Assembly: GCA_017452265.1 (NCBI GenBank)
Contig: JAFTMS010000017.1
Location: forward strand, 1-60,131
DNA: 60,131 nt
Reading direction: 5' to 3'
Origin: Bacteroidales bacterium
GTDB lineage: Bacteria; Bacteroidota; Bacteroidia; Bacteroidales; UBA932
The translations under genes were made by a program, and so were the position numbers. Position 1 is the stretch's first letter. The number at the start of each line of letters is the position of its first letter. The notes below the pieces were generated by a model. The model worked only from the letters and a program-made list of their open reading frames with translations. It searched no databases and was not told the origin of the DNA. Shown one piece after another: positions 5,127 through 57,240 of this stretch.

Positions 5127-5195
5127 ACTCAAATTTCGCAAGTGCCGTTTTTCGGCATAGCATCTAATCAATTATCAGCCAAGTGATTATATAAT

Positions 5196-5203
5196 CAAAG
5201 GTA
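5196..5203 (-). promoter_or_regulatory. Promoter -7 box upstream of murB
   Basis: On the minus strand this reads TACCTTTG, an exact match to the Bacteroidota -7 consensus TAnnTTTG, about 70 nt upstream of the murB ATG. No clear TTTG is found about 19 nt further upstream. A short GCCG-AAAAA-CGGC hairpin lies in the inferred leader. Confidence 0.55.
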
Positions 5204-5289
5204 GGAATTTTTACCGACCCTTGATTGCATATATTTTTGTATATCAAGCAATTAGCTGATGCGCCAATTATTCAAAGGCTGTCTGGTCA

Positions 5290-7515: not shown

Positions 7516-7555
7516 CAAAATTTTACCACAACATCATCCCTCATAAAGGTATCCC

Positions 7556-7617
7556 GTGCAAAAACATATAGAAAATGCTCGCGATACCCTCTTTTTTCGG
7601 GATACCGCGAGCATTTT
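7556..7617 (+). repeat. Family-A palindromic repeat, copy A2
   Basis: The hairpin arms are AAAATGCTCGCGATACCC (7572-7589) and GGGATACCGCGAGCATTTT (7599-7617), pairing with two mismatches around a T-rich loop. The left flank begins GTGCAAAAACATA, as in the other copies. It sits between the dnaG stop and the metG promoter and could also work as a terminator for the dnaG transcript. Confidence 0.8.
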
Positions 7618-7651
7618 TCCAGCAAAACTGCGCGGGATATGATGCGGCGGA

Positions 7652-13499: not shown

Positions 13500-15038
13500 A
13501 TGAGGGACTTATACATAACCAATTCACTTTCGAGGAAGAAGGAGCTTTTCAAGCCTATCAACGAGGGCCATGTGGGACTTTATGTCTGCGGCCCTACAGT
13601 ATACGGAGACGCTCATCTGGGCCATGCGAGGCCGGGTGTGACATATGACGTGTTCGTGAAGCTGCTGCGCCATCTCGGCTACAAGGTGCGCTATGTGCGC
13701 AACATCACCGACGTAGGCCATCTGGAGCACGACGCCGACGAGGGAGAGGACAAGATTGCAAAGAAGGCACGTCTGGAGCAGCTGGAGCCTATGGAGGTGG
13801 TGCAGAAATGCACTCTCGCCTACCATGAGGCCATGCGTATGCTGAACGTGGCTCCGCCTTCGATCGAGCCACGCGCATCGGGCCACATCATCGAACAGAT
13901 AGACCTCGTAAAGAAGATCCTCGATGCCGGTTATGCATACGAAAGCAACGGCTCGATATATTTCGATGTCCTGAAATACGACAAGGACTACAACTACGGC
14001 ATCCTTTCGGGACGTACACTCGACGAAGTGAAGGAGGGCACACGAGACCTCGACGGACAGCAGGACAAGAGGGCTTCATACGATTTCGCCCTCTGGAAGA
14101 AGGCTTCTCCTGAGCATATCATGCGCTGGCCGTCACCATGGAGCGACGGATTCCCGGGCTGGCATCTGGAGTGCTCGGCAATGAGCGAGAAGTATCTCGG
14201 AAAGGAATTCGACGTGCACGGCGGCGGAATGGACCTGCTTTTCCCGCATCACGAATGCGAAATCGCCCAGAACACGGCTTCACGCGGATGCAGCGGAGTG
14301 AAGTACTGGATGCACAACAACATGATCACCATCGAGGGCAAGAAGATGGGCAAGTCTCTCGGAAACTTCATCACTCTTCCGGAGCTTTTTGCAGGAAGGC
14401 ATCCTAAGCTCGAACAGGCCTACAGTCCTATGACCGTGCGTTTCTTCATCCTTCAGGCACATTACAGAGGCACTCTGGACTTCAGCAACGAGGCCCTGCA
14501 GGCTGCCGAGAAGGGCTTGAAGAGGATAATGCAGGCGGCAAAGGATCTGCGTTCCCTGGCATCTGCCGCAGGTGTGCAGCCAGCCCCTGCCCTTGCTTAC
14601 GGAGAGTTCGTTTCAGCGGTCGCTCCCGAGACAGTCACCGCTTCCAATTCAGAAGTGAAGGCCATAGTGGAGAACGTCTACGAAGCCCTCTGCGACGACC
14701 TCAACACGCCGATTGCCCTTTCGAACATCTTCGATGCAGTCCGCATCATAAATTCCGCAAAGGACAGGAAAGCCACTCTCGACAAGTCTGACCTTCAGGC
14801 GCTTGCAGACCTTTTCGACAACATCGTCTTCGGAGTGCTCGGACTGCGCGACGACGAGAACGAAGGCGGAAAGGCCGGCAAGACGATAGAAGGCCTCATG
14901 CAGATGGTCATCGAGCAGCGCAAGGCAGCGAAGGCGGCAAAAGACTGGGCCACCAGCGACCGCATCCGCGACGACCTCAAAGCCATCGGAATCCAGATCA
15001 AAGACACTAAGGAAGGGACTGAGTGGACGCTGGAATAG
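13500..15038 (+). CDS. cysS: Cysteinyl-tRNA synthetase
   Basis: 512 residues from the ATG at 13500 ([10 protein letters not shown]); an upstream in-frame ATG at 13479 would sit at the inferred transcription start. Class I synthetase charging tRNA-Cys. The zinc-binding Cys is in YVCGPTVYG, the HIGH motif reads HLGH ([10 protein letters not shown]), further zinc ligands are in WHLECSAMS and HHECE, and the KMSKS signature is KMGKS in [11 protein letters not shown]. The C-terminal helical and mini-domain region carries an Ala/Pro-rich insert near residues 360-385. It is followed directly by repeat A3. Confidence 0.97.
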
Positions 15039-15043
15039 ACCTA

Positions 15044-15128
15044 GTGCAGTTTTATAGGAAAAATGCTCGCAGTCCCCTTCAAAAAGAGGGTACCGCGAGC
15101 ATTTTCGCTATGTTTTTGCTCCAGGTCT
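15044..15128 (+). repeat. Family-A repeat, copy A3 (left boundary of island)
   Basis: An 85-bp unit running from GTGCAG to CCAGGTCT. The internal hairpin is AAATGCTCGCAGTCCCC / GGGTACCGCGAGCATTT. Counting by eye it differs from copy A4 (18615-18699) at only three positions and is in the same orientation. It begins 5 bp after the cysS stop. Confidence 0.9.
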
Positions 15129-15153
15129 TTACGACATCAGATACTCTATCAGA

Positions 15154-18593: not shown

Positions 18594-18614
18594 CGTTGTT
18601 TTGGCGGGCATCTG

Positions 18615-18699
18615 GTGCAGTTTTACAGGAAAAATGCTCGCAGTCCCCTTCAAAAAGAGGGTACCGCGAGCATTTTCACTATGTTCTTGCTCCAGGTCT
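18615..18699 (+). repeat. Family-A repeat, copy A4 (right boundary of island)
   Basis: An 85-bp unit in the same orientation as A3, with the hairpin at about 18630-18676. The right end overlaps the last two bases of the sensor kinase stop codon (18698). Confidence 0.9.
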
Positions 18700-21600
18700 A
18701 TTGGCGTTTTGGCAGGGTGACGACGAATGAGGCACCACCGAGGGCAAATGATTGCTGGTAGCGGATTTCGCCTTCGCACTTCTCGATTATGTTGCGGCAG
18801 ATTGCAAGGCCGAGGCCTGTGCCGGAGCTCTTGGTCGTGAAGTTCGGGGTGAACAGCCGGCTCCGGTTCTCTTCGCTCACGCCCGGGCCGTTGTCGTCGA
18901 ACACGATGTCGTAATATCCCTCCTTCATGCTGTTGCGCAGGCATATGAGCACACGTCCGACAGCAGGCTCGTCCCCACGCTCTTCAGCCTCCCTCTGCTG
19001 TATCTCCACAGCCTGTATCGCATTTGTGAGCATATTCACGAACACTCGTATGAGCTGAGGCTTCGGAGCCATGGCGTATGCGTTCTCCATACCTATATAT
19101 GTAATGCGCACGTTCTCCTTGTTGTCGAAGATCATGAGCTGGTCCTTCAGCGTCCTGTCAAGGTCGAGCAGCACAGGTTCCTCGCTGTAGAGCTTTGCGA
19201 ATGTAGAGAATTCGTTGGCCGTTTCCGTAAGGATGTCGATATGCTCCAGGACCACGGCCGAAACCTTGTCGAACTTCTCCTCCCATGCAGGATTGCCGTT
19301 CTGCTTCAGACGTATGAGTCTCTGTATCTCAAGCTTTATCGGCGTAAGCGGATTCTTGATTTCATGGGCCACCTGACGTGCCATCTGACTCCAGGCCTTG
19401 TCACGTTCCGCCTGTGCCAGCTGCCTTGTGGAATCCGACAGGTCCTTCACCATACGGTTATATGCGTCCACGAGAGACGAAATCTCGTCCTCACGCTTGT
19501 AGCGGATGTATTCCAGCTTATGTATGTCGGCTCCGGCCATCTTCTTTCCCATCTCCACGAGCGGCGAGAAAAGGGCGTTCACCTCGCGTGTGCTGAAGAG
19601 CAGCGAGATTATCAGCAGCAGAAGGAAGATATTGACCATCAGCGAAGCATGGAAGAAGGCCTCGCGGCGGAAATCGTAGTTCCTGTCCGTATACGGGACG
19701 CTGATTATGGCCACGATCTGACCGTTGTCGTTGAACACCGGCGCATAGAGTGCCCAATATTCGTAGTCCGCAATCTTTTCCCTGTGTATGAAGAACTTCT
19801 GGTTCAGATGGCGGATGTTGTAATAAGCCTCCTCGTCCATGCGGCTTCCGATGACCATCTTCTCGAACACCTCGGGAGTCGTGGAACGGAAGAGCTTTCC
19901 CGACGGGGTGTACAGGGTGATGTCGGACTTGGTCATGTTGCTGATGTTCTCCAGCTCGGAATCAAAATCCGCCGTAGCAAGAGCCTGATAATCAGAAGCT
20001 CCGCGTACTCTCGCCTCTATAAGGGCCTGGAGCGTGTTGATCTTCGACGACATCAGGTTGTACATGTTCGCCTCGTTCCTCTTGTACACGAACGTGATGC
20101 TCACGATGGTCATGCTGACGAGGATGAGGATGGACGACGTGAAGAGTATCGTATTGATTCTTATCCTGAAATAGTTGTTCTTGAACACTTCACGCCTCTT
20201 CCGATGGGTGGTCGTACATAGGATCGTGATGCCGAGAATCACAAGGAACAGATATGAAAACGACGTAAAGAACACCATAACGCTACGCTGCGACCGGGAT
20301 ATCACTATCAGCTCGCCCTCACCGGTCCTATGCATGAAGTGGGTGTATTCCTTCTGCCTCATCACGCCCGAATGCTCTCCATCCGGGAAACCCTTGTCGA
20401 AATTGTATGCTACCGTCGGATACGAATAGTTTCCTTTGGAGGATACGAGCCTGTCGTCCGAATACTTCGCATACGAGTAGAACTGCGGTATGTTTATGTC
20501 TCCGGGCTTCGAGAACCGCCCGAGAATGCTGTAATATCCCCTGTCCTCCCTGTTCGAATTCGGTTCTATCCTCAGGAGGAGCCTTGTGAGGCCATTCTGC
20601 TGCGAATAGAAGAGGAAGACTCCCTCATAGCGGCCGCGGCCGTTGGCATCCACAAGGAAGAGGAAGCGCGAACCCGACGCTATCGGGGTTCCGTTGCGGA
20701 TGATGTCATTGAAATACGCGATGCCGTCCTTGTCGTAGTCACGGAATACATATGCGGACATGTTGTATTTCTGTCTGGAGCGGCTCAGATACGTTTCCGT
20801 AATCCTGTTCACTATCATTCCGGCTGCATTGTCTATGCTCGTCAAAGCCGACACCAGCTGGTCGGTAGCGATGGCCTCCTCGACGCTCCTGAGCTGGATT
20901 TCCAGGCCGAGATTCCTTTCCACAGCGAGCCTGTTGGCCCACACCGTCACCCTGTCCTGCTCCTTCCTGAAGCCCTGCACACCCGACACGAGCGAGAAAT
21001 AGGCCGCCGTGACTATGGAGAACACCGTGATCGACTTTATCGAGAAGGCGTCGAAGCGCCAGCCGAAGAGCTCCCTGACGACAGGCCTGAGAGTCTGCAC
21101 CTGGAGCAGGATGCTCATGGAAAGGCCGATGAATGAAAGATATGCGATGGCGGCATATTTCGTATTGTCGTTCCAGCGGTAAAGTTCCATCGGGATGTTC
21201 GAGTTCTGGATGAGGCTGCGCAGAGCGAAGTCCAGATACACGGCGACCGCCATACCCGTGACAAGGGTAACGGCACCGTATGTCATCAGTTTCCTCCTCC
21301 TGTGCTGCCTGTCCTTTCTCGCCAAAGCGAGGAAACGGCCTCTGACGAAGAACGAGCACAAGCACACGAGGGTGATGTACAGGTTCAGCAGCAGGAGCGA
21401 GCCGAGTGAGAACAGGAACACTCCGTCGGCATAGACCGAAGGCGAGAAAATGGACGACACACCTGACATCTGAGCGCCCCAGATGAACGACATGGCAAGC
21501 AGCAGAGTGAACGTGACCACGACTGTGGCATATACCTTCATCGTGCGGTGTCCCGCGAGAAAGAGCACGGTCGCAAGAGCGAAAAGCAGCATTGCAAACC

Positions 21601-48837: not shown

Positions 48838-48873
48838 CATCCTGACCCTCCTGTCCCTCCTGTCCCTCCTGTC
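48838..48873 (+). repeat. 9-bp tandem array 1
   Basis: Three perfect copies of CCTCCTGTC (48847-48873) preceded by a degenerate copy. Confidence 0.85.
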
Positions 48874-48963
48874 CCCAGTCTCTCCTGTCCGCTGCTTCCC
48901 TCCTATATCCCCTGGCTTCCTGCCCTTGCCCCTTATGTCTCCCCTGGCTCTCCCCCCTCCTGC

Positions 48964-48990
48964 TCCCTCATGCCCCTCATGCCCCTCATG
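48964..48990 (+). repeat. 9-bp tandem array 2
   Basis: Three copies of CCCCTCATG, the first with one change. Ends 37 bp before repeat B1. Confidence 0.85.
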
Positions 48991-49026
48991 CTCGCGCACC
49001 TCCACTTGCAAAACACACCAGACCAC

Positions 49027-49100
49027 AAAACACAACGCACTATCCAGCAACAACTTACGCAAGGTGCGTGCTCCCCATTGGCAGCACGCACTTTCCACAA
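49027..49100 (+). repeat. Family-B palindromic repeat, copy B1
   Basis: The left flank AAAACACAACGCACTATCCA is shared with B2. Hairpin arms AAGGTGCGTGC (49061-49071) and GCACGCACTTT (49084-49094) surround a 12-nt loop beginning TCCCC. Confidence 0.85.
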
Positions 49101-49213
49101 CCTCCTGCAAACCAGCGCATTACATCTCACCTCGCATAATGCCTCCGGCATATCCTGTTTTATCAACATTAAGCAGGCCCTGCACACAATACGCAGTTGC
49201 CGACCGTCAGGCA

Positions 49214-49330
49214 TGTGGTACAAGAAAACTCCATTTCTTGTATCACACTATATAGTAGTATGCCTTCTGATGCGTTTTAGGAGGAGTCGTCATGACGTGT
49301 GATACATAAATCAGCCGATTTTTGTACCAC
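49214..49330. repeat. Possible 117-bp inverted-repeat (MITE-like) element
   Basis: TGTGGTACAAGAAA (49214-49227) is followed by TTTCTTGTATCACA (49234-49247), then TGTGATACATAAA (49298-49310) and TTTTTGTACCAC (49319-49330). The outermost copies form terminal inverted repeats and the inner two form subterminal ones. No coding content. Confidence 0.5.
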
Positions 49331-49468
49331 GCTCTTGCGAGGATAGGCTGCCGAGCAGATGTGCAGAGGAACAGATGGCCTGACGAGCGGACGGGCGGGT
49401 GAGCGGACGCGAGAAATATATGTTCAAACGAAACTTATATCAATCAGTATCTCAGCGCTTTATACATT

Positions 49469-49496
49469 ATCGCCTGCTCCACATGACGCAGGCGAT
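49469..49496 (+). terminator. Hairpin, terminator-like
   Basis: Perfect 9-bp stem ATCGCCTGC / GCAGGCGAT with a 10-nt loop and a short T run. No obvious gene ends here. Confidence 0.4.
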
Positions 49497-49633
49497 TTCT
49501 CGCAACTACCTGCCTGTCAGTTTTTTGCGACATAGCGTTTAACATATGGCGTTACGTATCCTAGAAAGTGTTCAGCAGCCAATTCTGGGCATAGTCATAG
49601 TTAGTTAACCGCAAATCATGACACAGGGCTTTG

Positions 49634-49669
49634 CACTTGAGCCACTTGAGCCACTTGAACCACTTGAAC
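49634..49669 (+). repeat. 9-bp tandem array 3
   Basis: Four copies of CACTTGARC (two with G, two with A at the variable base). It directly abuts repeat B2. Confidence 0.9.
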
Positions 49670-49670
49670 C

Positions 49671-49775
49671 AAAACACAACGCACTATCCAGCAACCACTT
49701 ACGCAAAGTGCGTGCTCCCCATCTGCGGCACGCACTTTCGGCAAGTTCTTGCTGCTCAATATATTACATTTTACG
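49671..49775 (+). repeat. Family-B palindromic repeat, copy B2
   Basis: Hairpin arms AAAGTGCGTGC (49705-49715) and GCACGCACTTT (49728-49738), a perfect 11-bp stem with a 12-nt loop beginning TCCCC. The right flank carries ATTACATTTTACGC, shared with B4. It lies upstream of RAYT 2. Confidence 0.9.
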
Positions 49776-49948
49776 CAAACCAGGATGCTCAGCGTCCGAT
49801 AAAACGCTCAGCGCCCCTTTAATATAATCAAAAAACCACAAAACGAAGAGAATGCAAAAATTTATTCGCCACATTTTTCTTTTTCTTATCATCCCGGCGG
49901 ACAAGTATCCATAGATTTGCCAATGACCGTTTAACGGATGGAACGATT

Positions 49949-50902
49949 ATGAACGATTATTATAAACCTATAATGATTATGAGAAAGAAGCGAAAATTCT
50001 ATCATGGTGCAATCAACCATGTCTACCAGAGGACTATTAATGGTGTACATTTGTTCTATTGCAGGGAAGACTGTCTGGTTTTCTTTACAATCCTGTCGGT
50101 GTGTGCCCGGAATGATGGTGTAAGAGTACTTGAATTGTGTCTGATGCACAATCATATACATCTTTTGATAGAAGCGGAGACGTTGCAGCAGCTCAGTCGT
50201 TTCGTTGACCACTACACGGCTTGGTTTGTCCGTGAATACAATACCTTCACCGGGCGTACCGGCAAACTCTTCAAGAAGAATTTCGGCAGCGCCCCCAAAT
50301 GGGAGGAAAAGCGTCTGAGGAGCGCCATCATATATATAGGTAACAATCCTGTGGAAAAGCATTTCTGCCGAAAGGCCGATGAGTCAAGGTGGAATTTCCT
50401 TCAATATGGATTGAGTTCGCGTCCTTTTTCTGAGCCGCTGAGGAAAAGTAAGGCTACGTGCGAACTGAAGAAGGCATTGAAAGCGGTCGACATCATGGTT
50501 GCCCTGAATCTGCCGCTCAAATATTCCCAGCTTATATGTCTTGGAGGTAAACTTTGCACACGCGAACAAGAACAACTCACAGACTATGTCATATCCCGAT
50601 ATTCCGCCATTGACCATAAGGGACTGGCATCCTATTTCAAATCATATGACGCCATGCTTGCAGCAATGTCGGTTACTACGGGTGATGATTATGACATAAA
50701 GGAAAGAAGAGATGACTTTTCACTTGAGTCGTTTTCTGAAATGACGGAATATTTGCAGGGCAGGATGGCGAGACACGAAATCGGAAAGGTTGTCGCTCTG
50801 CCGTTGGACGATAAAGTCAGATTGTATGACGAACTGCAGAAACATACCAATGCGACAGGCCGTCAGATCTGCAAATTTCTGCACATACGGGAAAAGGTGT
50901 AA
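49949..50902 (+). CDS. REP-associated tyrosine transposase (RAYT), copy 2
   Basis: 317 residues. MHNHIHLLIEAE carries the HUH-type HIH (69-71) and YIGNNPVEKH the catalytic-type Tyr129. An Arg/Lys-rich C-terminal part follows, ending in a helix-turn-helix-like stretch (KHTNATGRQICKFLHI). It is only distantly similar to RAYT 1. It is bracketed by family-B repeats (B2 about 170 bp upstream, B3 about 30 bp downstream), the arrangement expected for a RAYT and its cognate palindromes. Met9 and Met11 are alternative starts. Confidence 0.88.
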   Translation: MNDYYKPIMIMRKKRKFYHGAINHVYQRTINGVHLFYCREDCLVFFTILSVCARNDGVRVLELCLMHNHIHLLIEAETLQQLSRFVDHYTAWFVREYNTFTGRTGKLFKKNFGSAPKWEEKRLRSAIIYIGNNPVEKHFCRKADESRWNFLQYGLSSRPFSEPLRKSKATCELKKALKAVDIMVALNLPLKYSQLICLGGKLCTREQEQLTDYVISRYSAIDHKGLASYFKSYDAMLAAMSVTTGDDYDIKERRDDFSLESFSEMTEYLQGRMARHEIGKVVALPLDDKVRLYDELQKHTNATGRQICKFLHIREKV

Positions 50903-50919
50903 AATACAAACACCTGACA

Positions 50920-50985
50920 GCCAGCCGGTTACATAAAGTACGTGCCGTCGCGGGGGAGCACGCACTTTAAGCAAGCTGCTGAAAA
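50920..50985 (+). repeat. Family-B palindromic repeat, copy B3
   Basis: Arms AAAGTACGTGC (50935-50945) and GCACGCACTTT (50958-50968) with one mismatch and a 12-nt loop. The loop is the reverse complement of the B1/B2 type (ends GGGGA). Confidence 0.85.
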
Positions 50986-51010
50986 TCAGTGATTTGCAGT
51001 TCGCGGGATT

Positions 51011-51961
51011 TTATCTTTCCGGTTCGAAGTGCTCTTTGCCGACTCCGCAGGCAGGGCAGGTCCAGTCGTCGGGCAGTCCGCTGAACGGGGTGCCGGGCGG
51101 TATGTCGTTCTCAGGATCGCCCTCGGCCGGATCGTAGATGTAGCCGCACAGAACGCAGACATAGCGCCGCATGTCCTTCGGCTCGGCTTGGGCTGAAAGT
51201 GCCGCATCCGCAGCATACGTGGCCGCAGCATACGGAACCGTCGCATCCGAGGCCTCTGCCTCCTCGTCAGCCGTTTCCGCATCTTCCGCAGCGGCTTCCT
51301 CGACAGCCTTCCTGATAGCTTTGCCGTCCGTTTCCACGACGGCCGCATCTTCCGTCAGGTCCACAATCAGAGCCACCGGTGTGTCCTCGTGCATCCTTTC
51401 CGCCACCTTGTTCCAGTTTATCAGCTCCCAGCAGTTGTCGATGTAGGCTGCGCGGCGGTTCCTGTAGTCAACATAATAGGCGTGTTCCCACACGTCAATC
51501 GTCAGCAGAGGCTTGTATCCCGCGCGCATCGGATTGCCCGCGTTCGACTCTGCGATGATGTGCAGCCTTCCCTTGCCGTCCTGTGCGAGCCATGCCCAGC
51601 CCGAGCCGAAGACATCAGCCGCAGCCTTCTTGAACTTCTCCTTGAACACGTCCACTGAGCCGAAGTCACGGCTGAGCGCGTCCTTCAGTTCTGCCGGAAT
51701 GTCTGTCGGTGATGGGGTGAGGGAGTTGAAGAAGAATGTGTGGTTCCACACCTGTGCGGCATTGTTGTAGACAGGGCCCGTGGCCGTGAGGATGAGGGTT
51801 TCGATCGGGACATCCTCGAGGGGAGTGCCTATGGTCAGGCGGTTGAGGTTGTCGACATAGGTCTGGAGATGTCTGCCGTAATGGTAGTCGATGGTCTCCC
51901 GACTCATCTTGGGCTCCAATGCGTCAGGCGCATAAGGGAGCGGGGGTAATGTGTAGATCAT
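51011..51961 (-). CDS. Fe-type superoxide dismutase fused to rubredoxin
   Basis: 316 residues from the ATG at 51961 ([10 protein letters not shown]). The SOD part (about 1-195) has metal ligands His27, His74, Asp156 and His160 ([20 protein letters not shown]), with Gln70 as in Fe-SODs. An Ala/Glu/Asp-rich linker (about 200-262) joins a complete rubredoxin (264-316) with Cys269, Cys272, Cys302 and Cys305 (CVLCG, CPACG). Rubredoxin is usually fused to rubrerythrin or stands alone. Here it could reduce the SOD iron and turn the enzyme toward superoxide reduction, but that is inference. The fusion is continuous in one frame. Confidence 0.92.
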
Positions 51962-52038
51962 ATATGTATATATTAAGTCCGTTGCGGGCTGTATTTCAAA
52001 TCTCAGACCGAACCGGAAAGATTGCCACGTCACTGGCG

Positions 52039-52172
52039 CTCCTCGCAATGACGTGAGTCGCGATGTCTGGATCGATGCTCCTCGCAATGACGCGAGTCGC
52101 GATGCGTGAGTCGGTGTGCCTCGTAATCACGTGAGTCGCGATGCGTGATTCGACGCGGTTCGCCATGACGTG
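52039..52172 (+). repeat. 39-bp tandem array, 3.4 copies
   Basis: Units start at 52039, 52078 and 52117, with a partial fourth at 52156. Each contains TCGCAATGACG-like and GTGAGTCGCGATG blocks. It lies between the SOD-rubredoxin start and the AraC-type gene. The minus-strand core (CGTCATTGCGAGGAGC) resembles a repeat familiar from many bacterial genomes. Confidence 0.85.
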
Positions 52173-52199
52173 TTACTGCACCTTTTACGGATAATATTA

Positions 52200-52273
52200 T
52201 CAAAAGGTCAAAAATTGCACCGAATTACAATGTTTGGATTGCTTTTTGAATGTCAAAAGGGCAAAAATTGCAC
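52200..52273 (+). promoter_or_regulatory. Two 21-bp direct repeats before the AraC-type gene
   Basis: 52200-52220 and 52253-52273 differ at one base and share the core CAAAAATTGCAC. Start-to-start distance is 53 bp, close to five helical turns, and the second ends 4 bp before the ATG. This fits an autoregulatory operator of an AraC-family protein. Confidence 0.6.
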
Positions 52274-52277
52274 ACAA

Positions 52278-53192
52278 ATGGAAAATCATTTCAACAACAT
52301 CAGCATCTCGCGGATAAGGGAGTATCTGCCCGAAGACAAATATCTCGGAGTGGACAACGAGTTCTTCATCATCGACACGAAATCCATGAAGCAGCCGCAT
52401 ACATTCGCATATCCCTGCCGCTTCGACGGCTACCTCGCCATCTTCTGCGTAAAAGGCGGAGTCCGCATCACAATGAACATGAACGAATTCGAAATGAGGG
52501 ACAACACACTTCTGCTCAGCTTGCCGGGCAATATAATAAAGGTGTCGGAACTTTCGGAAGGCATGGAACCGGAAGACATGCGCTATGTGATTCTGGCCAT
52601 GTCCAAGGAGTACCTCTCGGGAATGAGGATGGACATGAACAGGATATTCAGCGATGCGATGCCGATTCTCGAGAACCCGTGCCTGCGGCTTGAGGAAAAG
52701 GAGACAGCTCTTGCAGGAAAATATCTTGAACTTCTCGCAAACGTGATGGCAGCGGACATCCAGTACAAGACGGAGGTGATGCATTCGCTTCTGTCTTCAG
52801 TATTCTATCTGATCGCAGGCGTCTGGACGAGCCGCATGACGGAAAAGAGGAAGAATGTTCCCGTGCAGTCCAGCCGCAGCAAGATGATCTTCGAACAGTT
52901 CATCAGGCTTGTTGCCGAGCACCACACGAAGGAGCGCAATGTGGGATTCTATGCCGACAAGCTTTGCCTGACGCCGAAATATCTGTCGAAGCTCATAAAG
53001 ACGGCGTCGGGACGTTCAGCCCCAGAATGGATAGATTCATACGTGATCCTCGAGGCCAAAAATCTTCTTAAATATTCCAATATGACCATAAAGGAGATAG
53101 TCTACAGGCTCAACTTTCCTAACCAGTCTGTGTTCTACAAATTCTTCAAGGCAAGGACGGGCCAGACACCGAGCGAATACAGGAATTCATAA
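52278..53192 (+). CDS. AraC-family transcriptional regulator
   Basis: 304 residues from the ATG at 52278 (MENHFNNISI); the upstream extension would read through the direct repeats. The N-terminal cupin-like effector domain (about 20-130) has IFCVKGGVRITMNMNEFEMRDNTLLLSLPG. The C-terminal pair of helix-turn-helix motifs shows YADKLCLTPKYLSKLIKTASGRSAPEWID and the AraC signature IKEIVYRLNFPNQSVFYKFFKARTGQTPSEYR. The effector is unknown. The next gene downstream on the same strand is the MFS transporter behind its own promoter. Confidence 0.92.
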   Translation: MENHFNNISISRIREYLPEDKYLGVDNEFFIIDTKSMKQPHTFAYPCRFDGYLAIFCVKGGVRITMNMNEFEMRDNTLLLSLPGNIIKVSELSEGMEPEDMRYVILAMSKEYLSGMRMDMNRIFSDAMPILENPCLRLEEKETALAGKYLELLANVMAADIQYKTEVMHSLLSSVFYLIAGVWTSRMTEKRKNVPVQSSRSKMIFEQFIRLVAEHHTKERNVGFYADKLCLTPKYLSKLIKTASGRSAPEWIDSYVILEAKNLLKYSNMTIKEIVYRLNFPNQSVFYKFFKARTGQTPSEYRNS

Positions 53193-53283
53193 GACAGCAA
53201 GTTGCTAAATCATGCTAAAATAGCCGTATCGACAGCAATATTTTTCCATTTCGTAGAAATTTCATTAAAAAAATTACGAAAAA

Positions 53284-53314
53284 TTTGGAGTTTGATTTTA
53301 AATCATTACCTTTG
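53284..53314 (+). promoter_or_regulatory. Full Bacteroidota promoter for the MFS-ROK operon
   Basis: TTTG (53284-53287), a 19-nt gap and TACCTTTG (53307-53314) match both consensus boxes. It gives a leader of about 225 nt before the MFS gene. Confidence 0.75.
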
Positions 53315-53319
53315 CAGAG

Positions 53320-53544
53320 GACATCAGAAATTTTTTCGTGTCTATTTGTTAAGTTCGTTTTATATACGGCAGGCGTCCTTGGGGAGGGACGCCTGCTAAA
53401 TTTATGCAACATACAGGCCATTTTTCTGAAAAATCATACTTTTGAGGGTGTATGTCGTTTTTTTTCGTAACTTTAGCGCCGATTTGCAAAAATCAGTTCA
53501 AACCCCATTGACTATATAATTATTAACATAAAAACTCAAGACAA
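53320..53544 (+). other. Long structured 5' leader of the MFS-ROK operon
   Basis: Holds a perfect 10-bp hairpin (53369-53396) and T-rich DNA. A second weaker promoter-like box (TAACTTTA, about 53469) could give a shorter transcript. No open frame stands out. Confidence 0.5.
53369..53396 (+). promoter_or_regulatory. Hairpin in the MFS leader
   Basis: Perfect stem GCAGGCGTCC / GGACGCCTGC with loop TTGGGGAG, followed by TAAATTTAT instead of a strong T tract. It may act as an attenuator, a processing site or a weak terminator. Confidence 0.5.
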
Positions 53545-54825
53545 ATGAACAAGAACAAAATCAATTGGGTAGCGGTTCTTACGATGATGTTCCTTTTCGG
53601 AATGATCTCATTCGTCACAAACCTCGCTGCACCTATCGGAACAATCTGGAAGCAAGCTCCGGGCATCGAAGGCTCCAACACATGGGGTATGATGGGTAAC
53701 ATGATGAACTTCCTTGCATATCTCTTCATGGGACTTCCTGCCGGACGCCTCCTCATCAGATACGGATATAAGAAGACCACTCTTCTCGCTGTGGGAATCG
53801 GTCTTCTCGGTGTGTTCACACAGTTCCTTTCAGGCCAGATGGCTGTCGGAGCAAGCCTTGCAGGTCTTCCTGCCAACTTCTTCATCTACCTCCTCGGAGC
53901 ATTCATCTGCGGATTCTCCGTATGTATCCTCAACACAGTGGTGAACCCTATGCTTAACCTTCTCGGAGGCGGCGGAAACAGAGGAAACCAGCTCGTGCAG
54001 ATCGGAGGTACATTCAACTCACTCATGGGTACGCTTACTCCGATACTCGTCGGCGCCCTCATCGGCTCTGTGACGAAGAACACCGTCATCACAGACGTGA
54101 ACCTCGTGCTCTACATCGCCATGGGTGTATTTGCTGCGACATTCATCATACTCCTGTTCATTCCTTTCGTTGAGCCTGAGCAGCCTAAGTCAAGCACTCC
54201 CGTGAAGTTCCTCCTTCAGTACAAGCACCTTGTGTTCGGAGTCATCGCGATCTTCCTTTATGTAGGTGTCGAGGTGGGCATCCCGGGAACACTCAACTTT
54301 TACCTTACAGACACATTAGGCACAGCCAATGCTGCTGCGACCGCAGGAGTTGTTGCCGGTACATATTGGCTTCTCATGCTCTGCGGACGTTTCATATCAA
54401 GCTTCATCAGCGGTAAGATTTCCAGCCGTACGCAGCTTACTGCCACTTCTGGTCTTGCTATTATCCTCGTCATTGCTGCGATGTTTACAGAAAACATCAC
54501 AACCTCGATGCCGGTATTCTCAGTAGAGTCTGGCTTCGGAATGGCTCAGGTTCCTCTTACGGCCCTTCTTCTTGTGCTCTGCGGTCTCTGCACGTCAGTG
54601 ATGTGGGGTACGATCTTCAACCTTTCGCTTGAGGGTCTTGGTGAGCATACATCACTTGCTTCCGGTCTCTTCATGACAATGGTTTTCGGCGGTGGCGTTC
54701 TTCCGCTTCTCCAGGGTGCTGTTGCGGACATGACTTCATACATGACCAGCTACTGGGTGATCGTAGTCGCTCTCGTATACATCCTCTGGTTCGCCCTCAT
54801 GGGTTCAAAGGTCAAGAAAGCATAA
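53545..54825 (+). CDS. MFS sugar transporter (FucP/glucose-galactose type)
   Basis: 426 residues with twelve membrane segments. Family features of FucP/HexP-like symporters: NLAAPIGTIWKQAPG near the start, GRLLIRYGYKKTTLLAVGIG (about 67-86), ICGFSVCILNTVVNPMLNLL and GLFMTMVFGGGVLPLLQGAVAD (about 379-400). Probably a proton- or sodium-coupled hexose importer. The ROK kinase 31 nt downstream would phosphorylate the imported sugar. Confidence 0.9.
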   Translation: MNKNKINWVAVLTMMFLFGMISFVTNLAAPIGTIWKQAPGIEGSNTWGMMGNMMNFLAYLFMGLPAGRLLIRYGYKKTTLLAVGIGLLGVFTQFLSGQMAVGASLAGLPANFFIYLLGAFICGFSVCILNTVVNPMLNLLGGGGNRGNQLVQIGGTFNSLMGTLTPILVGALIGSVTKNTVITDVNLVLYIAMGVFAATFIILLFIPFVEPEQPKSSTPVKFLLQYKHLVFGVIAIFLYVGVEVGIPGTLNFYLTDTLGTANAAATAGVVAGTYWLLMLCGRFISSFISGKISSRTQLTATSGLAIILVIAAMFTENITTSMPVFSVESGFGMAQVPLTALLLVLCGLCTSVMWGTIFNLSLEGLGEHTSLASGLFMTMVFGGGVLPLLQGAVADMTSYMTSYWVIVVALVYILWFALMGSKVKKA

Positions 54826-54856
54826 TTTATCGTAAATATATAAACCAACGCGCATA

Positions 54857-55816
54857 ATGAACTCACAATTTGTAGTCGGCATCGATGTCGGAGGACAGAC
54901 CACCAAACTCGGTGTCGTAGACGCAAGAGGAACAGTCCTCTCGCAGACAGTGATCCGCACGGACACATATCAGGACATTGAGCCATACATCGCAGAACTT
55001 GCCGAGGCCATCAACAAGATCATCAAGGAGTCTGGCACAGAAGGCAAGATCAAAGGTATCGGCGTAGGTGCCCCGAACGGAAACTATTATACAGGTACGA
55101 TCGAGAACGCCGTGAACCTTTCATGGGGCGGTACAAACACCGTCGAGTTCGCAAAACTGCTTTCAGAGGCTATGGAAGGCCTTCCTGTGGCTCTTACGAA
55201 CGACGCCAATGCTGCTGCTGTGGGTGAGATGACTTATGGCGCCGCAAGGGGCATGAAGAACTTCATCATGATTACCCTCGGAACAGGCGTCGGCTCGGGA
55301 ATCATCATCAATGGTGAGGTCGTTTACGGCCATGACGGATTCGCAGGCGAGCTCGGACACGTATGCGCAGTGCGCAACAACGGACGCTCATGCAACTGCG
55401 GCAAGACAGGATGTCTTGAAACTTACGCTTCAGCAACGGGTGTGGCACGTACCGCACGCGAGTGGCTTGAGCTTTCAGACGAGCCTTCAGTTCTCCGCAG
55501 CCTGGACAACATCACTTCAAAGGATGTATATGAGGCAGCCAAGGACGGCGACAAGCTCGCTCTCAAGATCTTCGAGTTCACTGGAAAGATTCTCGGACGT
55601 TCATTCGCAGACTTCATCGCATTCAGCTCGCCTGAGGCAATCGTCCTCTTCGGCGGTCTTGCACGTGCGAAGGAGTATCTTCTCAGCCCGATCGAGGAAG
55701 CAATGAATGCAAATGTGCTCCCTCTGTGGCGCGGCAAAGTGAAGATCGTTTTCTCACAGCTCAAGGAGTCCGATGCTGCCATCCTCGGTGCATCTGCCCT
55801 TGCTTGGGAGTTATAA
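54857..55816 (+). CDS. ROK-family sugar kinase (glucokinase-like)
   Basis: 319 residues. ATP-binding DVGGQTTKLGVVD (about 10-22), TLGTGVGSGIIINGEV (about 139-154), the ROK signature and the zinc site CNCGKTGCLE (about 178-187) with the adjacent His (GHVCAVRN) are intact. Probably phosphorylates glucose or a related hexose supplied by the MFS transporter upstream. Confidence 0.93.
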   Translation: MNSQFVVGIDVGGQTTKLGVVDARGTVLSQTVIRTDTYQDIEPYIAELAEAINKIIKESGTEGKIKGIGVGAPNGNYYTGTIENAVNLSWGGTNTVEFAKLLSEAMEGLPVALTNDANAAAVGEMTYGAARGMKNFIMITLGTGVGSGIIINGEVVYGHDGFAGELGHVCAVRNNGRSCNCGKTGCLETYASATGVARTAREWLELSDEPSVLRSLDNITSKDVYEAAKDGDKLALKIFEFTGKILGRSFADFIAFSSPEAIVLFGGLARAKEYLLSPIEEAMNANVLPLWRGKVKIVFSQLKESDAAILGASALAWEL

Positions 55817-55833
55817 CAGCCTGACACATAGGG

Positions 55834-55875
55834 AAATATGGCCGGCCTTTTGCGAGACCGGCCATATTTTTTGAT
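55834..55875 (+). terminator. Rho-independent terminator of the MFS-ROK operon
   Basis: 12-bp perfect stem AAATATGGCCGG / CCGGCCATATTT, 12-nt loop, then a T run. Confidence 0.92.
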
Positions 55876-55886
55876 ATATAGTGAAG

Positions 55887-56582
55887 TCAGAACCTCATCA
55901 GCTTCACCTGATTTCTGATTCTGTAAGGTGTGGACCTCACGAAAAGCAGCCATTGCCCGAGATAGTACGGGACCATGATGAGGTATCTCTGCCCCGGAAT
56001 CGGCTCCACAAACCTGTTCCATGCAAGGATGAAGTCCGAGAATACGAAAAGGACGGCACCGAGAGCGTAAAGCGAACTGCGCTGCATGAGGGCCGTCACC
56101 ATCATTGCGCATATCATTGTTGCATATATGCATACGCCTGTGCGGATTATTCCTGCAGGCGCGCACGGGGCCACCTTCGTCAGGGCGACAGCAAGCAGCA
56201 CTCCGGCGCACAGCAGCACCATTATCATATATCCCTTTGCCTTTCCCGTCAGTTTCCTGTCATGCTCCACCTTTGCCAGATACCTCCTGACAAAGAAGAA
56301 TATCATCCATGCGTGGGCAAGCGCGAAGAAGAGCATCTGCATTATGAAGCTGCTGCACGAACCGGCATAATCTCCGAGAAACGAAAAGAACATCGCCAGG
56401 CACATCTCCCACGGCAGAAGCCACAGCCCGGCAACGGTCAGAGTGGCCAGCGGAAATGAAATCTTGTGCGGAATCTTCACCGGAGCGAAATAAAGCACGG
56501 CGAGACACAGGAATACGAAACTTGCCGCGAAAACAAGCGGCCGCACCTGCCGCTCACTTATCTTCAAGACTGACTTTCCCAT
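55887..56582 (-). CDS. YhhN/TMEM86-family membrane protein (lysoplasmalogenase-like)
   Basis: 231 residues from the ATG at 56582 (MGKSVLKISE); the longer frame would run through repeat B4. About eight membrane segments. Two short acidic motifs typical of YhhN proteins are present: FSFLGDYAG (about 66-74) and LFVFSDFILAWNRF (about 184-197). Family members hydrolyse lysoplasmalogens or related lipids; the bacterial substrate here is unknown. Confidence 0.82.
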   Translation of the reverse strand: MGKSVLKISERQVRPLVFAASFVFLCLAVLYFAPVKIPHKISFPLATLTVAGLWLLPWEMCLAMFFSFLGDYAGSCSSFIMQMLFFALAHAWMIFFFVRRYLAKVEHDRKLTGKAKGYMIMVLLCAGVLLAVALTKVAPCAPAGIIRTGVCIYATMICAMMVTALMQRSSLYALGAVLFVFSDFILAWNRFVEPIPGQRYLIMVPYYLGQWLLFVRSTPYRIRNQVKLMRF

Positions 56583-56619
56583 ATAAAGTAGCTTATTTGA
56601 AAAACCTAAATACCTGTAC

Positions 56620-56706
56620 GTCAGCTCCTTGCGCAAAGTGCGTGCCGCCAAAGGGGAGCACGTGCTTTGGGTAAAAGGTTGATATATAGGCTATTACATT
56701 TTACGC
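56620..56706 (+). repeat. Family-B palindromic repeat, copy B4
   Basis: Arms AAAGTGCGTGC (56635-56645) and GCACGTGCTTT (56658-56668) with two G-T wobbles and a 12-nt loop ending GGGGA. The right flank has ATTACATTTTACGC, shared with B2. The flanks are in B2 orientation while the loop is inverted. Confidence 0.85.
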
Positions 56707-57240
56707 TTAATAACCATTCCACGAAGCGATGGCTTCGAGTGGTTTGCGGATCTTTTCGCGGGTAGGGGCATCGGGATGCCCAAGCGCTATCAGCAGCTGG
56801 ATGCGGCGGCTACGGGGCACGCCGAGAAGCTTCTTCACCTTCTTCTCGTCGAACCAGCCCATGATGCAGGTTCCGAGTCCAAGTTCGGCAGCCTGCAGAC
56901 AGAAGTGCTCGACGGCAATTCCGAGATCCATCATGCTGTAGTCCTTGCTTTTGACTATGCTGCCGGCCTTTGCCGATAGATTCATGTTCTCCTGAACCAC
57001 AGCCACCAGCACAGGCACCTGCACCGTGAACTTGTTCATACCCAGCCCGATTGCCGCTTCCGACATTTCCGCCAGTTTGGCCCTGTCGTCGACCACGATG
57101 AATTTCCACGGCTGGGAATTGCAGGCTGAAGGGGCGAGACGGGCTGCCTCAAGACATTTGAGAATATGCTCCCGAGCTACGGGCTTGGGAGCATATTTTC
57201 TGTCGCTTTGTCTTTTGTTGACTAATTCTAAAAATTCCAT
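56707..57240 (-). CDS. Nitroreductase-family FMN oxidoreductase
   Basis: 177 residues. RQSDRKYAPKPV (about 10-21) and LAPSACNSQPWKFIVV (about 35-50) bind FMN phosphate and isoalloxazine; MMDLGIAVEHFCLQAAELGLGTCIMGWFD (about 105-133) is the dimer core. The substrate is unknown. It begins 3 nt after the acyl-CoA ligase stop, so the two form an operon. Within its first codons lies a perfect 11-bp inverted repeat (57163-57197). Confidence 0.93.
   Translation of the reverse strand: MEFLELVNKRQSDRKYAPKPVAREHILKCLEAARLAPSACNSQPWKFIVVDDRAKLAEMSEAAIGLGMNKFTVQVPVLVAVVQENMNLSAKAGSIVKSKDYSMMDLGIAVEHFCLQAAELGLGTCIMGWFDEKKVKKLLGVPRSRRIQLLIALGHPDAPTREKIRKPLEAIASWNGY

Follow-up and report, generated by a model that had tools for sequence, protein, structure and literature searches.

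A dispersed 106-bp element with a RAYT-matched hairpin core in a shared frame, probably linked to the tyrosine transposase RAYT2 of a Bacteroidales bacterium

To our knowledge, it is an open question how REP-associated tyrosine transposases (RAYTs) recognise their repetitive extragenic palindromes (REPs) and by what route new pairs of RAYT and REP come about. RAYT-specific REP families flanking the RAYT genes, several of them in one genome, and REP dimers within longer palindromes are already described in the passages of PMC6006769, PMC3116915 and PMC3733652 drawn on here. The same part of PMC6006769 reports REPs with a tetranucleotide 1-2 nt off the hairpin foot as well as double-foot REPs, and gives W94 and Q95 as conserved in the GTAG subclasses; for the insertion sequence IS608, the part of PMC5934647 used here names TTAC and TCAA as cleavage sites and AAAG as left guide. 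In the open-licence literature, no description was found of a constant frame that is common to many RAYTs and carries exchanged cores and termini. Here we describe family B, a dispersed palindromic element around the transposase gene RAYT2 in a 60,131-nt stretch of DNA from a Bacteroidales bacterium (contig JAFTMS010000017.1 of assembly GCA_017452265.1, positions 1 to 60,131; hereafter the window), which is part of a draft genome (G000) of 2,564,470 bases in 45 contigs with a completeness of 84%. It is likely that the 106-bp unit of family B is a dispersed, non-autonomous element linked to a RAYT, in which a private core and private termini are set into a shared frame, and which would be bound, cut and rejoined by its cognate RAYT.

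RAYT2 (49949-50902, forward strand) encodes an HUH Y1 transposase of 317 aa, with H69-I-H71 as HUH motif and Tyr 129 in YIGNNP. Four copies of the B element lie around it: copy 1 at 49025-49130 (core 49061-49094) and copy 2 at 49669-49774 (core 49705-49738, 174 bp upstream of RAYT2) on the forward strand, copy 3 at 50899-51004 (core 50935-50968) and copy 4 at 56599-56704 (core 56635-56668; 2 bases from the stop codon of the gene at 56707-57240) on the reverse strand. Copy 3 overlaps the end of RAYT2, the stop codon TAA (50900-50902) lying inside its terminal repeat. As the first-pass annotation of the window had claimed, all four copies, read from the sequence, show arms of 11 nt and a loop of 12 nt, and copies 2 and 3 bracket RAYT2. 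Strictly perfect pairing was found in one of the four (arms at 49705), while the others comprise one G-T pair (49061), one A-C mismatch (50935) or two G-T pairs (56635). The hairpins are real, but the starts given for them (49027, 49671, 50920 and 56620) lie 15-34 nt upstream of the arms, and the repeat unit is not the hairpin, as had been assumed, but the 106-bp element. The loop has an orientation, reading TCCCC..GGCG in one direction, and is paired in part. Copies 1 and 2 have the left half in common and not the right one; an exchange of halves as a general rule was discarded, since it is clear for these two copies only and thus remains an anecdote.

A genome-wide search bore out the dispersed nature of the family. 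The degenerate (IUPAC) pattern of the arms matched 12 places in the 2.56-Mb draft genome, and 49 were matched by the consensus arms when up to 3 mismatches were allowed, the reversed control giving no match in either case. A gap-free alignment of the 49 copies spans 110 columns, with the element at columns 3-108; the conservation of the arms in this alignment is partly due to the arm-based selection, while the frame search described below ignores the arms. The element consists of a private hairpin with a stem of about 13 bp, private terminal inverted repeats of about 7 bp and two inverted boxes of 27 bp. In consensus, one half reads roughly GTAAAATRYAA-N4-YTR-N3-WTCARY-N3-TTRY-N2-AAAG-TGCGTGC, with the reverse complement of this sequence as the other half, and the oriented loop reads TCCCC-NTT-GGCG. 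Near-invariant columns are 12/99 (A/T in 49 of 49 copies), 27/84 (47) and 34/77 (46), whereas the spacers are almost random, with a mean identity of the halves of 0.37 over 24 low-information columns.

When all symmetric columns are taken together, the 49 copies have 1554 Watson-Crick pairs compared to 1536 expected, and an excess (p below 0.05) was found only at columns 38-73, 41-70, 42-69 and, more weakly, 52-59. One long hairpin joining the element halves was rejected for the boxes, where dyad pairing is at expectation, and so was a separate hairpin per box, for which 260 pairs compared to 283 expected and 288 compared to 304 were counted. Since an excess of dyad pairing is limited to the core stem, the boxes seem to be recognised by their sequence rather than as a paired stem. 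The same observations could be explained if a host DNA-binding or nucleoid protein used the boxes as operator-like sites in duplex DNA and the hairpin family were secondary: they are conserved position by position without covariation, each is roughly palindromic itself, and pairing within them is below expectation. However, 43 of the 45 exact half-box matches in the genome (both strands counted) lie in paired elements and only 2 stand alone, by which isolated boxes as host sites were rejected. Moreover, the frame formed by the boxes is almost restricted to the RAYT-bearing genus: in a sample of 393 genomes from the order it occurs at 2 mismatches in 3, G000 included (one reversed-control match occurred, in G059). 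Host operators are thus an unlikely explanation of the boxes. As a separate observation, three frame matches outside the genus (G417; L165, L167) have centres that by eye are not hairpins, and some of their boxes look like near-perfect palindromes.

The frame pattern, which comprises the boxes alone and any 38 nt in the centre, matched 48 places in G000 (control 0). According to the printed centres, 39 of these carry a B core, 8 a C core (AAATCGCCTGC..GCAGGCGATTT) and 1 a D core (AAGGTCGG). Since four of the B places are not among the 49 arm matches, family B comprises at least 53 copies. Two RAYT2 paralogues, one on contig C9 (44% identical) and one on C29 (41%), are flanked by the C and D hairpins, respectively, and both core types also occur in the window, in elements that the first-pass annotation had missed. 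The frame element at 49430-49535, between B copies 1 and 2, carries the C core found beside the C9 paralogue (ATCGCCTGC..GCAGGCGAT), and the one at 5157-5262 carries the D type core found beside the C29 paralogue (AAGGTAGG../..CCGACCCTT). In single-sequence RNA folds of the six window elements, the core hairpin was formed in the four B copies and the C element, the minimum-energy fold of the D element lacked the full core hairpin, and the outer parts paired differently in each of the six. Instead of the two transposases with two palindrome families proposed for the window, at least three RAYT/hairpin pairs (B, C and D) are therefore found on one frame in this genome.

Within the genus, a group of gut bacteria, the frame was found in 64 of 151 genomes (control 0 in each) and a RAYT2-like protein (E up to 1e-20) in 88. 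Both occur in 56 genomes, the RAYT alone in 32, the frame alone in 8 and neither in 55 (Fisher p 2e-10, uncorrected for kinship). The suggestion that the palindromes track the transposase holds for the frame elements in so far as they occur in 56 of 88 genomes with a RAYT compared to 8 of 63 without, but fails for G030, which is discussed below. One genome, G148, has 42 frame places and six RAYT2-like genes; the places listed, which are part of the 42, comprise several core types.

A comparison of 62 RAYT loci, which are those fetched and not all matches, links cores and termini to individual RAYTs. Clean frames were obtained for 61 loci; 59 entered the alignment A1 (without L132 and L034, the window replacing L017) and 56 the tree. 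Within 600 bp of the gene, a frame element was found on both sides at 42 loci and on one side at 15, compared to 0 of 124 shuffled flanks, and the 27-bp box frame is common to most RAYT loci examined in the genus. In 71 of 118 elements the centre is 38 nt long, and in 107 it measures 37-40 nt. When each RAYT is represented by a single element (n=38), covariation is seen at the terminal columns 3-9/102-108 (p of 0.003 or less for each) and at the core columns 41-52/59-70 (p of 0.001 or less for each), whereas the boxes between them are conserved mostly without covariation. The exceptions are 12-99, with 38 of 38 paired compared to 34.2 expected (p below 0.001, owed to two elements), 35-76 (p 0.005), and 11-100 and 13-98 (p 0.03-0.04). 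The cores on the two flanks of one RAYT agree with a median of 0.76 compared to 0.37 (39 of 42 above the 95th percentile), and the termini agree less strongly (0.66 compared to 0.35; 24 of 42). Across the 56 RAYTs, core similarity stays at a background of about 0.5 below 60% protein identity, while the 13 pairs with 60% or more reach 0.78 (Mantel 0 of 2000). Cores are shared within clades of the tree, for example TGTCCTGC by L085 and L024 and AATCGTCTATG by L104 and L145; L020 has TTTGTCCTGC on one side.

Terminal inverted repeats that vary between families and match within an element would also be expected for a miniature inverted-repeat transposable element (MITE) moved by a DDE-type transposase that recognises the terminal repeats and is unrelated to RAYT. 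However, tests of the 49 B copies at nine offsets and for six lengths revealed no target duplication, and cores and, less strongly, termini agree on both sides of one RAYT gene, so that a MITE is very improbable.

The protein itself has a RAYT fold and intact catalytic residues. RAYT2 matches Y1_Tnp (Pfam) with 6e-7, a family matched by 57 of the 59 aligned members, and H69, H71 and Y129 are invariant in the 59 sequences. In a fold comparison RAYT2 was nearer to TnpAREP than to IS200 transposases. At the position of the WQ motif, which is associated with recognition of GTAG, the consensus is GRxGxLFxxxFGSAPK. The C-terminal part (about 165-317) is helical by DSSP and little covered in the fold comparison; no recurring Pfam match to it was found, 15 families other than Y1_Tnp each matching one of the 59 members. 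The closest named relative found, 62% identical, belongs to a Bacteroidales metagenome-assembled genome from buffalo colon. The RAYT2 relatives of G021 (62% identical) and G026 (53%) are flanked by a near-identical CTGCGTGC core, which supports the pairing of family B with RAYT2, G030 and G007 being exceptions to it.

Concerning the element, the dispersed extragenic copies flank the cognate transposase. With respect to the paired inverted halves of REPINs (two REPs in inverted orientation), dyad symmetry is present, in which core and termini covary and the boxes hardly. No GT[AG]G lies 0-2 nt 5' of the hairpin foot; instead, TTRY-N2 is the consensus there in the 49 B copies and in the 38 elements of different RAYTs. 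Terminal repeats of the type GGGGWSAS were not found either: left termini start with GT or CT in 70 of 118 elements, and the B consensus is GTAAAAT. Since GTRG is missing at the hairpin foot, the likeness to REPs drawn in the first-pass annotation has to be narrowed, and the B element is assigned here to the RAYT/REPIN kind without being a canonical REP.

The genomic positions point to gene 3' ends. By flanking open reading frames (ORFs), 18 of the 49 copies are convergent, 20 tandem and none divergent, while 6 lie inside an ORF call and 5 at contig edges. Of 79 ORF 3' ends, 40 lie within 15 nt of an element (simple ORF calls, spurious frames included), and in 13 ORFs the stop codon is inside the element, 7 at columns 4-6 and 6 at columns 11-13, where the consensus is TAA. 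These positions could be explained by elements that act mainly as bidirectional terminators or stabilisers of mRNA 3' ends and are kept by the host, the link to RAYT being a relic of their origin. At a second orthologous site, six of eight comparable relatives (G152 left out) have unrelated palindromes or hairpin-like structures by eye, which agrees with this explanation. In contrast, a terminator scan, which gave 8 sites compared to 8.4 expected in shuffles, called none of the four B copies of the window terminator-like, by which the terminator reading of the B copies was discarded as unsupported. In addition, termination leaves the conserved boxes, the covarying termini and the RAYT-matched cores without explanation, so that a function kept mainly by the host is rather doubtful.

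The orthologous sites differ in presence and core of the element. At C29:191.6 kb, G000 has an element, G007 and G063 show no room for one, and in G159 the site is occupied by an element whose core, CGCCTGC, is of the type that flanks the RAYT of G159 itself. By eye, G026 and G080 have elements or hairpins with other cores and G032 has another repeat; three relatives were excluded as not comparable. At the second site, G007 has a CTGCGTGC element and G161 an element with the core type of its own RAYT. This site is a convergent gene junction (L221-L226) with palindromes of similar length, one repeat being common to G032 and G159 with a variant in G026. A further rearrangement was observed in the window: compared to five relatives (G007, G090, G021, G063 and G032), the segment 51005-56598 (about 5.6 kb) is inverted relative to the block at 56.7-59.8 kb, and in G007, G090 and G021 the block up to 48.5 kb shows that the segment alone was turned. 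Since B copies 3 and 4 lie at the ends of this segment, recombination between elements is suggested; the frame scan found no frame element at the junction in the five relatives.

Several observations weigh against family B as a RAYT-linked element. No element was found within 600 bp on either side of 5 of the 62 RAYT loci, and 32 of the 88 genomes with a RAYT have no frame at 3 mismatches. Conversely, G030 (97% complete) has 18 elements and no RAYT2-like gene, and 7 further genomes without RAYT have 1-2 copies each. (By our reading, all 18 orphan elements of G030 carry one core, TTGTCTATGGG and close variants.) L136 and L141 are 90% identical and have no common core (0.54, automatic pick), and G007 (61% complete) carries a CTGCGTGC element while its one detected RAYT2-like gene is flanked by another core. 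Since the genomes of the genus are related, the Fisher and Mantel figures overstate independence. RAYT2 scores 33.5 bits for the NCBIfam family REP_Tyr_transpos, for which the cutoff is 80, and the GTRG guide is missing at the foot of the B element. In the 49 copies the variable columns come close to random, so that there is no sign of recent amplification of B in this genome. Finally, no clean insertion boundary or excision was seen; empty sites were discarded as a source of clean boundaries, because the relatives are too diverged at the gap for the element ends to be placed.

Altogether, the linkage of family B to RAYT2 is still the explanation we favour, and from it we infer binding, cutting and mobility. 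The cognate RAYT would bind the private central hairpin on single-stranded DNA, with TTRY, which lies 2 nt off the foot on each side, in place of the canonical GTRG guide of REPs. It would cut near the hairpin and rejoin at the element, as for REPs, and copies would thereby spread to gene 3' ends. Since TTRY lies at this distance on both sides and is conserved across cores, it is a natural candidate for the guide or cleavage tetranucleotide. The shared boxes would be recognised by their sequence, either by a partner or by a conserved region of the RAYT; the latter is most likely, though a guess, since the boxes hardly occur without the element. Beyond this, a two-part address code is quite possible, though short of probable: the RAYTs of the genus would share the frame (boxes and TTRY feet), and each would read its own core and terminus, so that several independent transposase/element pairs would occupy a single chassis within one genome, swap cores at orthologous sites and act as inversion endpoints. 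Dozens of RAYTs are available in the genus that differ in a defined core and terminus of their targets while the remainder is constant, which is nearly a ready-made specificity series for assays of binding and cleavage; the frame pattern finds such elements without knowledge of the hairpin, and TTRY provides a candidate for a guide free of GTRG.

Other repeats were observed apart from the frame elements. The family A hairpins (AAAATGCTCGC) at 7540-7650, 15020-15145 and 18595-18712 of the window have outer inverted arms of a different design and gave no match in the scan with the family B frame; a similar hairpin lies about 0.5 kb past the matched part of a distant RAYT on contig C26 of G000 (L049). 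Between B copy 1 and the C element, 49215-49330 contains further inverted repeats (TGTGGTACAAGAAA..), and low-complexity tandem repeats (CTCCTGTCC-like) lie upstream of the RAYT2 cluster at 48840-48990. Another palindromic repeat (GTCATTGCGAGGAGCGAAGCGACG; L051:6010-6090) has dozens of near-identical matches across relatives.

Among the known systems, as far as the cited parts describe them, REPINs and bacterial interspersed mosaic elements (PMC3116915) resemble family B as palindromic, extragenic, gap-free units of about 100 bp beside RAYT genes, with RAYT-specific families and compensatory inner changes. The conserved repeat of REPINs is the RAYT-specific REP, whereas here the boxes are common to RAYTs down to about 32% identity to RAYT2, and it is the core and the outermost ends that are private. 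The double-foot REPs of TnpAREP subclass 2.4 (PMC6006769), which occurs in Bacteroidetes, share with B a long hairpin whose two feet carry a tetranucleotide and the reverse complement of it, and NHIH and YIGNNP of RAYT2 fit the NH[IFV]H and YIxNNP of this subclass. In contrast, B has TTRY at 2 nt off the foot and not GT[AG]G, and carries extra boxes and terminal repeats outside; RAYT2 has 317 aa compared to 194 and LFKKNF in place of WQ, and most of its relatives have DHxH. Subclass 2.6, also in Bacteroidetes and compared by description only, is flanked by repeated atypical structures without GT[AG]G, as is the case here, but differs from RAYT2 in YIH[QN]NP, WQ and a length of 179 aa (PMC6006769). 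The IS200/IS605 ends, with IS608 as example (PMC5934647), have the HUH fold in common, and TCARY-N3-TTRY-N2-AAAG-hairpin in the B half comprises look-alikes of the IS608 sites, which is a likeness only; no autonomous insertion sequence is present here, and AAAG is paired in the B stem. Finally, TIRtrons (TIRYT; PMC3733652) have tyrosine transposase genes flanked by inverted repeats, as found here, and the REP dimers of A. variabilis within a longer palindrome resemble the layout of B. Unlike the terminal inverted repeats of many TIRYTs, the B terminus is not GGGGWSAS, and in the elements described here the frame is fixed while the core is exchanged.
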